The translations under genes and the position numbers were made by a program. A DNA stretch of 44,571 bases from Opitutaceae bacterium (GTDB taxonomy: Bacteria; Verrucomicrobiota; Verrucomicrobiia; Opitutales; Opitutaceae): contig JACMRG010000123.1 in NCBI GenBank assembly GCA_014376585.1, positions 1 to 44,571 of the forward strand. The letters are read 5' to 3'. The notes under the pieces were generated by a model. The model worked only from the letters and a program-made list of their open reading frames with translations. It was not told the DNA's origin and made no database searches. This document shows, piece by piece, positions 16,385 through 19,105 of this stretch (the first letter of the stretch is position 1; each line of letters starts with the position of its first letter).

Positions 16385-17887
<1,503 letters not shown>

Positions 17888-17906
17888 GTTCTTTACTCTG
17901 GTCGCG

Positions 17907-18338
17907 ATGGCAGCCATCACCGACCCCTTCGCTATCGGCGGACTACCCGCCAAGGCGAAAATCATTCTCCTCGGTTCACCCGATTTTCACTCTGAAAACC
18001 TGATGAACTTAGTTTGTTCTTTGCACATTGAGCACGTCTCTCCCGCTGGCCTGTCGCGCCGGGAGATTTCGCGCCGCCCCGGCTCCGCTGAGGCGACTGA
18101 AGCCGCCACCATCGCCTCGTTGCGAAAGTGGTTCTTTGCGCGCAAACCTGATGCGGGATTTATCCTCACGGATTTCCCGGCTACGCTGCTCCAAGCCTTA
18201 GTGTTCGCTGAGTGGATGGACGCCCGTGACGAAACTTTCGCCGCGGCGCTCGCCGCTCCCGGTGCTTCCGCATCGGTGGTCGAATACTATCGCACCTTGG
18301 GCCTCCTCGTTGAAGACGGGGCCCCACTCGCCGCATGA
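17907..18338 (+). CDS. Adenylate-kinase-like protein lacking the P-loop (probable pseudo-enzyme)
   Basis: 143 residues. Gene order secY-X-map places it exactly where adk sits in many bacteria, and the sequence still shows the fold: KIILLGSP (residues 18-25) where Adk has IILLGAPGAGKGT, then GFILTDFPATLLQALVF (84-100) where Adk has GFILDGFPRTxxQA. But the glycine/lysine P-loop is replaced by SPDFHSEN, the DGFPRT Arg is Ala (FPAT), and the LID domain and the last third are missing, leaving YYRTLGLLVEDG near the C-terminus. It therefore cannot bind and transfer phosphate like Adk. It has an intact frame and is coupled to map by an ATGA overlap, arguing for a retained role. A functional adk must lie elsewhere. 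Chance similarity is the alternative; the synteny makes it less likely. Confidence 0.7.
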   Translation: MAAITDPFAIGGLPAKAKIILLGSPDFHSENLMNLVCSLHIEHVSPAGLSRREISRRPGSAEATEAATIASLRKWFFARKPDAGFILTDFPATLLQALVFAEWMDARDETFAAALAAPGASASVVEYYRTLGLLVEDGAPLAA

Positions 18339-19105
18339 TTCCGATCAAAGACAAAGTCGGTATCGCGAAAATGCGCGAGGCCTGTGCCATCGCAGCCACG
18401 GTGCTTGATCAACTCAAGCACCTCGTCCGGCCCGGTGTCACTACGCAGGATTTGGAGGAAGCGGGCCGCGATTTGATCACCCGTCTAGGCGCTCGAAGCG
18501 CCTGTTTTGGTTACCAAAACGGTTCACGCCGCTACCCCGCGCACACTTGCATCTCCGTCAACGAGGAAGTCGTTCATGGCATTCCTTCCTTCCGAAAAGT
18601 GTTACGCGAAGGGGATGTCGTTTCGCTCGACATCGTGGTTTGGCACGACGGCTACGTGGGCGATAACGCCTTCACTGTTCCCGTCGGCCCGATCTCGCCC
18701 GGTGTTGAAAAATTGCTCCGCGTTTCTCGCGAAGCTCTCGATCTCGGCATCAAGCAGGCGCAAATCGGCAATCGAATCGGCGACATCTCGCACGCGATTC
18801 AGACGCACTGCGAAAGCAACGGTTTCAGCGTCGTCCGCGACATGGTTGGCCACGGGGTCGGCCTCGCGATGCACGAGCCACCGGAGATCGCCAACTTCGG
18901 TCGACGCGGCACCGGCGAAAAGATCAAGGCCGGCATGACGCTCGCGATCGAGCCCATGGTTAATCTTGGCGGCTTTAAGACGAAAACGCTCTCCGACGGC
19001 TGGACTCACGTCACCGCCGACGGACTGCCCTCTGTTCACTTCGAACATACTGTGCTCACGACTGACCGCGGCCCCGATATCCTCACGATCCCGCGCCCGC
19101 TTTGA
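18335..19105 (+). CDS. map: Methionine aminopeptidase type I
   Basis: 256 residues, starting inside the stop of the previous gene. It removes the initiator Met from nascent proteins with small second residues. The metal ligands are visible: Asp in VVWHDGYVGDNAFTV (two Asp), His in MVGHGVGLAMHEPPEIANFG, Glu in LAIEPMVN and Glu in SVHFEHTVLTT. The His in AHTCISVNEEVVHGIP (substrate-side His79 equivalent) is also present. No N-terminal SH3 or zinc-finger extension exists. infA and rpmJ, which often follow map, are absent before rpsM. Confidence 0.96.
   Translation: MIPIKDKVGIAKMREACAIAATVLDQLKHLVRPGVTTQDLEEAGRDLITRLGARSACFGYQNGSRRYPAHTCISVNEEVVHGIPSFRKVLREGDVVSLDIVVWHDGYVGDNAFTVPVGPISPGVEKLLRVSREALDLGIKQAQIGNRIGDISHAIQTHCESNGFSVVRDMVGHGVGLAMHEPPEIANFGRRGTGEKIKAGMTLAIEPMVNLGGFKTKTLSDGWTHVTADGLPSVHFEHTVLTTDRGPDILTIPRPL

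Follow-up and report, generated by a model that had tools for sequence, protein, structure and literature searches.

A conserved structured RNA inside a catalytically degenerate adenylate kinase gene of the Opitutaceae ribosomal-protein operon: a candidate boxA-linked cis-acting element

The ribosomal-protein operon of most Opitutaceae carries, between secY and map, a reading frame (hereafter ORF X) that descends from adenylate kinase (Adk), and the middle of this frame contains a conserved structured RNA, which is well supported by nucleotide constraint and covariation. We analyzed it starting from a single window, the whole 44,571-nucleotide stretch of Opitutaceae contig JACMRG010000123.1. 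The best explanation of the combined observations is a new cis-acting RNA of the ribosomal-protein operon that evolved inside a dying adk. The RNA is conserved even in a relative with a broken frame, and thus the dead enzyme gene seems to have been kept largely for its RNA.

An adk-derived reading frame between secY and map

The features framing the locus are:

16385..17887, + strand: secY, the upstream gene (ORF; synteny among relatives)
17907..18338, + strand: ORF X, Adk-derived, with neither P-loop nor LID (homologue alignment, AlphaFold, Foldseek)
18335..19105, + strand: map, the downstream gene, its start overlapping the stop of X (ORF)

ORF X begins with ATG 19 nt past secY, runs uninterrupted for 143 aa and overlaps map by ATGA. 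An earlier note on this DNA, made from the sequence alone, had recognized the adk slot between secY and map and an intact frame overlapping map by four bases, and both observations hold, X being descended from the syntenic adk of related families. Its reading of an Adk-like core with a replaced P-loop and an Ala for the Arg of DGFPRT was likewise accurate. The P-loop region is KIILLGSPDFHSEN, without the Lys of the GxPGxGK signature of the enzyme; SPDFHSEN occupies the P-loop site, and this region is variable over 74 homologues. The core reads GFILTDFPAT, and the Ala that stands for the Arg of DGFPRT (position 92) is shared by 68 of the 74. X itself has no Pfam match and only weak matches to NCBIfam adk models (E 0.035 and 0.15), and some of its homologues in the family pass the PF00406 cut-off. 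The AlphaFold model (pLDDT 80.6, from an alignment of 63 of the 74 homologue sequences) retrieved 48 PDB chains with Foldseek at E<=0.001, all of them adenylate or related NMP kinases, and this structure prediction, which the note had proposed as a check, supports an Adk CORE fold for X. Thus, X resembles the adenylate kinases of PF00406 in predicted fold, synteny and descent and differs from them in the absence of the P-loop, the DGFPRT Arg and the LID. The LID is indeed lost, as previously noted, but the C-terminal part, also reported as gone, is not: the Adk C-terminal motif Y-R-x-x-G-L-L is still present, so the loss in X was internal rather than terminal. The other family ORFs that we read also lack the LID and mostly retain Y-R-x-x-G-L-L; LID remnants with Cys pairs were seen only in two early-branching genomes (G029 and G036, loci L102 and L101).

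The view that X is no fresh pseudogene finds support in its phyletic pattern, in that an Adk-derived, P-loop-less ORF is kept across the Opitutaceae: 126 of 150 family genomes have a match at E<=0.1, 114 of them at E<=3.8e-10, and the other 12 matches are weak or partial. When 20 of the 24 family genomes without a match and 10 weak ones were rechecked, secY was present in the assembly for only 13 of the 30. Ten of these 13 family genomes (genera g9, g13, g19 and g48) have secY and neither X nor the RNA beside it, rpsM lying 162-190 nt after secY. In these loci (L112-L121) map does not follow secY either, and given the position of rpsM it must be elsewhere or missing. In a weakly supported SecY tree (65 taxa, 111 columns), these ten RNA-less genomes fall outside, seven of the early ORF loci lie near the base and an eighth, L098, lies within the main group.

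Elsewhere in the class, a full-length ADK match is flanked by secY and map in 10 of the 13 loci that we read (the remaining three are without both neighbors); the P-loop letters were checked one by one in L141, L142, L144 and L146. In all 14 genomes examined from the other families of the order (f2-f6), secY is followed directly by map with no adk. The search for another adk-type gene in the window's own genome, likewise suggested by the earlier note, gave a single PF00406 match in this 91.5% complete assembly, a protein of 426 aa with intact GGAPGAGKGT and DGFPRT motifs:

L001 1270-2550: long Adk-like kinase of the window's genome (PF00406 match)

Kinases of this type (~400-426 aa; L001, L233) were found in the order members sampled. 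A long kinase occurs in 47 of 177 class genomes, including all 18 family genomes and 13 order-mates of that survey, and in 16 others (one a weak partial match). Among the 14 genomes outside the order that have both a long kinase and a secY locus, 12 show secY directly followed by map. In the other two, G307 (L247) and G295 (L248), a canonical adk next to secY coexists with the long kinase, which may represent an intermediate state. In our reading the X locus is the old ribosomal-operon adk, whose enzymatic job was probably taken over by the long Adk-like kinase; with the job so passed on, the P-loop, LID and catalytic residues of X were lost. The long protein presumably performs the adenylate kinase reaction. 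Further ADK proteins are encoded elsewhere in many family genomes. Several Opitutaceae (L032-L044, L051 and others) have frames of ~480-580 codons with two complete ADK matches ~740 bp apart, and in other Opitutaceae two matches ~580 bp apart occur in frames of ~390-480 codons.

A structured RNA in the middle of ORF X

Synonymous divergence is lower in X than in its neighbors. Over 14 hand-chosen close pairs, on which all these divergence counts are based, fourfold sites of identical residues differ at 119 of 1100 positions in X, 408 of 1765 in map and 1073 of 3319 in secY. The constraint is concentrated in the element described below, where dS is 0.107 (dN/dS 0.40), ~3x below map (dS 0.314, dN/dS 0.11) and ~4x below secY (dS 0.470, dN/dS 0.06); after the element dS in X is 0.247. 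Individual codons are essentially fixed over 113 distinct copies: Ser38 TCT (113/113), Leu39 TTG (110/112), Glu42 GAG (109/109), Ile54 ATT (105/106), Ala83 GCG (105/105) and Leu95 CTC (105/106). Across codons 37-56 third positions are as conserved as first positions (0.81 vs 0.82), as against 0.55 vs 0.74 in map. RNA constraint is thus dominant in the middle of X, with moderate protein constraint also present. As a separate observation, the stretch 5' of the element (codons 1-36, 17907-18014) also has a low dS, 0.160 vs 0.314 for map.

The conserved region is organized as a boxA-type motif followed by a four-way junction in which P1 closes P2, P3 (with P3a) and P4, usually over 185-220 nt:

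18015..18199, + strand: conserved structured RNA, covariance model R1, 185 nt, X codons 37-98 (constraint, covariation, covariance model)
18015..18023, + strand: boxA-type motif TGTTCTTTG, family form YGTTCTTTG (family alignment; boxA-like sequences of the rrn leader in L293)
18030..18037, + strand: P1 5' strand GAGCACGU (8/8 pairs in 108/108 distinct copies)
18183..18191, + strand: P1 3' strand ACG-C-UGCUC, one bulged base, mostly C, sometimes U (family alignment, pairing counts)
18039..18047, + strand: P2 5' strand UCUCC... (base 4/4 pairs in 108/108; covariation)
18058..18066, + strand: P2 3' strand ...GGAGA (covariation, hairpin stability, pairing counts)
18067..18073, + strand: P3 5' strand UUUcGCG, register uncertain (6/6 pairs in 100/108)
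18141..18146, + strand: P3 3' strand CGCAAA, register uncertain (covariation test, pairing counts)
18074..18083, + strand: P3a hairpin 5' strand (10/10 pairs with two-sided changes)
18087..18096, + strand: P3a hairpin 3' strand (covariation test)
18154..18165, + strand: P4 5' side, CGGG and inner AUCC (basal 4/4 pairs in 108/108; inner 1/4 two-sided)
18170..18179, + strand: P4 3' side, inner GGAU and CCCG (covariation, window fold, pairing counts)

This anchored pattern fits 148 of 157 copies (108 distinct); the nine that depart from it comprise eight loci of the early branches plus L105, which duplicates L110; under the latter handle the copy fits. In an alignment of 56 of the 59 equal-length copies, 88.7% of the 2520 cells of 45 predicted pairs are paired, against 34.8-52.1% with the partners slid, and two-sided changes occur at 18 pairs (67 cells) vs 11.5 pairs (31 cells) in shuffles, none of 500 shuffles being as high. 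The 45 pairs include a tentative 4-pair helix (100-103/108-111) that is absent from R1. The other 49 of the 108 distinct copies entered only the comparisons of spacer motif and P2 hairpin, of pairing counts, and of P3 register and the G062 and G076 copies. The compensatory changes are located in P2, P3a, the inner stem of P4 and the tentative helix; in P3a, where 71.8% of cells are paired, all ten pairs are compensated. No variation occurs in P1, in basal P4 or in five of the six P3 pairs, so covariation cannot test them, and their support is the nested plan and the energy. P2 is more stable than its loop-shuffled versions in 88 of 92 distinct hairpins. Unconstrained RNAalifold recovers P1, P2 and basal P4, with a P3-like pairing in another register, at an energy of -21.6, as against -6.5 (sd 2.4) when columns were shuffled 50 times; the covariation term by itself lies close to zero (+0.30), as invariant stems would lead one to expect. 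For P3, the register UUUcGCG:CGCAAA makes 6/6 pairs in 100 of 108 copies and fits a two-sided swap in L079; the alternative CGCGC:GCGCG, with 5/5 pairs in 77 of 108, is favored both by RNAalifold and in the minimum-energy fold of the window sequence. The window sequence alone otherwise folds to plan, with an unremarkable energy (z -1.40; 17 of 200 shuffles equally stable). The antisense strand folds at least as well (-26.7 with RNAalifold); the excess of G-U over A-C (89 vs 40 cells) supports the + strand. Between P3 and P4, the segment CCUGAUG is unpaired and nearly invariant.

The covarying fold accounts for the frozen nucleotides, which could alternatively be ascribed to a protein gene overlapping in another frame. 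An antisense frame is stop-free across the element in 85 of 106 copies, and another in 59, but none of the alternative frames is free of stops in every one of the 106, the two remaining + strand frames average >2 stops, and an overlapping frame does not predict compensatory pairing; this already disfavored reading we regard as a very remote prospect.

The most telling result is the retention of the RNA in G062, a member of the same genus in which the X frame is broken inside the element. Against five congener copies, 65-66 of its 69 core bases (boxA, P1, P2 base, E2, E3 and E4) are unchanged, with an R1 score of 98.6 bits, whereas its flanks are 53-57% identical before and 43-50% after the element; over these flanks the intact congeners are mutually 73-81% identical. 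The copy has an energy z of -3.21 with P1 and P2 in place and P3 and P4 rearranged in the minimum-energy fold. SecY and Map of G062 are 95% and 83% identical to those of the window, so the decay does not extend to the whole locus. This is the only clearly broken frame and comes from one assembly, where an assembly error is possible; divergence over the whole protein argues against such an error. In G076, a frame of 114 aa is in register but lacks the residues Trp75, Phe85, DEWL and HYRxxGLL, while 66-68 of the 69 core bases are kept relative to five copies (R1 68.3 bits).

These two genomes bear on the earlier proposal of a retained non-enzymatic Adk fold with a regulatory or structural role, the nucleotide conservation being its by-product. 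The predicted fold and the retention of the frame stand: at least 120 codons are open in 154 of 155 X loci (collected through protein similarity, a search that favors intact frames), and Arg107, Glu109 and Gly132 are conserved with free synonymous codons. As the main feature of the locus, the protein does not stand, since the strongest conservation is that of nucleotides in a covarying RNA fold, with synonymous sites frozen, and the RNA bases persist in G062, with its broken frame, and in G076, with its Adk core residues gone. The test of purifying selection proposed in the note gave a divided answer: dN/dS in X outside the RNA is ~0.38, moderate next to map and secY, and tight at codons 99-111 (0.14). 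We therefore consider a protein retained for its own sake improbable; a protein role is possible in most lineages and is not needed in all.

Searches with R1 (Infernal with stricter filters, by which weak matches are lost) detect the element in 111 of 150 family genomes at E<=0.01, 107 of them at E<=8.4e-16, with four weak or truncated matches (G010, G027, G033 and G143). The class scan returned 19 of 188 genomes, 17 in the family and two marginal, and the phylum scan 32 of 387, 31 in the family and one a marginal partial match. Early-branch ORFs (L098-L104, L106) score 10.7-43.5 bits. Wherever compared, the match coordinates lie within X matches and adjoin secY. No known family was recognized: in Rfam 15 there is no match in the window at the gathering score, and below threshold only CRISPR-DR9 at E 6.8, outside the element. 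A literature search, over titles and abstract openings, found no description of a secY-X-map RNA element.

Candidate boxA motifs and a possible cis-acting mechanism

The motif at the 5' end of the element reads GTTCTTTGC in the window and GTTCTTTGA in most family copies. The strict pattern GYTCTTTRA has no match in the window, and YGTTCTTTG alone is not rare there (2 occurrences vs 0.68 expected). The likeness to boxA therein comes from one genome of the same clade, G051, the source of the single family 16S locus (L293) obtained on searching eight genomes: its rrn leader contains GCTCTTTGA, in GCTCTTTGAAATTTACT, ~143 nt upstream of the approximate 16S start, and GTTCTTTGA, in GTTCTTTGAGAGTCC, ~282 nt upstream of it. 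The boxA of Bacillus subtilis rrn is UGUUCUUUGAAAACU. The form GTTCTTTG is kept in all 8 ORFs of the early branches, none of which gives a strong R1 match. Further, TGTTCTTTGA is present in the secY-map spacer, where there is no adk, of the six f2 genomes sampled (L255-L258, L260 and L261); of the eight other order loci (of 14), the spacer has TGTTCTTTC in one and no motif of this kind in seven. The f2 spacers suggest that a boxA at the secY-map site may be older than the RNA junction.

Baniulyte et al. (2017, PMC5725501) describe putative boxA sequences upstream of suhB and of translation genes, including rpsJ in three genera, and Nus-dependent repression of suhB. The YGTTCTTTGaA of our element resembles boxA, the NusB-NusE/S10 site, of rRNA and of the suhB and rpsJ leaders as presented there, but differs in its setting, since it lies in the middle of the operon, within a reading frame, and a conserved RNA with a four-way junction comes after it. 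Among processive antitermination RNAs are HK022 put and the Bacillus EAR, which are nascent structured RNAs thought to act on RNA polymerase. The present element, predicted to act similarly, has another fold, lies in another operon and has a boxA. The ribosomal-protein leader RNAs are likewise structured RNAs in ribosomal-protein operons, from which the element differs in not being at the operon start and in matching no Rfam family.

On these grounds our leading interpretation, held at somewhat short of even confidence, is that a boxA-linked RNA may control in cis how the distal ribosomal genes are transcribed. In most Opitutaceae, the central part of the decaying X would have become a cis-acting RNA, or already carried one that was then elaborated. 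The element would probably recruit NusB/S10, which would bind boxA as the S10-spc-alpha transcript emerges. The junction might position or stabilize this complex, or a further factor, on RNA polymerase, such that transcription of map, rpsM, rpsK, rpsD, rpoA and rplQ is spared premature termination or adjusted to free S10. Nus binding, antitermination and whatever the RNA senses are thus predictions of this model. A difficulty for it is the location of the motif in a translated ORF: passing ribosomes might strip off Nus factors and melt the RNA. X is open in most genomes and probably allows translation through to the overlapping map start, perhaps with a small role for the protein, and ribosome traffic on X might decide whether the RNA folds. 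The more specific idea of a new class of boxA-linked antitermination RNA, in which boxA came first, the junction was built within the former adk frame, and the frame later broke in one lineage and the protein core eroded in another with the RNA remaining, is possible but on the doubtful side.

Next in rank, though somewhat unlikely, is a binding site for a ribosomal protein, through which S4, S13, S11, S10 or another operon product would exert translational or transcriptional feedback, boxA then being either incidental or a component of that switch. The position in a ribosomal-protein operon, the four-way junction and the nearly invariant unpaired bases, such as CCUGAUG, are what such a site would show. 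Against it stands the lack of convincing 16S likeness: sense-strand blastn of the E3 region against the L293 16S locus gave just 17 nt at 82% (E 13). By the same match we rejected 16S rRNA mimicry by the GCGCAAACCUGAUGC segment, a possibility raised by the E. coli 16S sequence.

More doubtful still than a retained protein is that the element is excised from the operon transcript as a small RNA acting in trans. A compact closed fold with P1 as closing stem, deep conservation and one match per genome (save G126, with two contigs) would suit such an RNA; a cis role is favored by boxA and by the position beside secY wherever compared. An independent transcription unit was also rejected: between 16300 and 19200 the + strand showed nothing resembling a promoter, and the end of the element nothing resembling a terminator.

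If the idea of a new antitermination class is right, a gene has been caught turning from enzyme to RNA. The locus shows an RNA function taking over, in place, from an enzyme gene, and present-day relatives display the successive stages: a canonical adk, a kinase-dead ORF in which a LID remnant survives, an ORF with boxA and no LID, an ORF with the RNA, and the RNA with a broken frame. It also points to transcription control in the middle of a large ribosomal-protein operon in a little-studied phylum, and it cautions that conservation of a pseudoenzyme ORF can be due to RNA.

Finally, a second boxA-like motif directly follows the secY stop:

17888..17898, + strand: second boxA-like motif GTTCTTTACTC (family motif count)

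In 74 of 108 distinct family sequences the pattern [CT]TTTAC[TC] lies <=48 nt from the secY stop, and 8 of the 10 family loci that have no X echo the motif as TCTTTACTTT.
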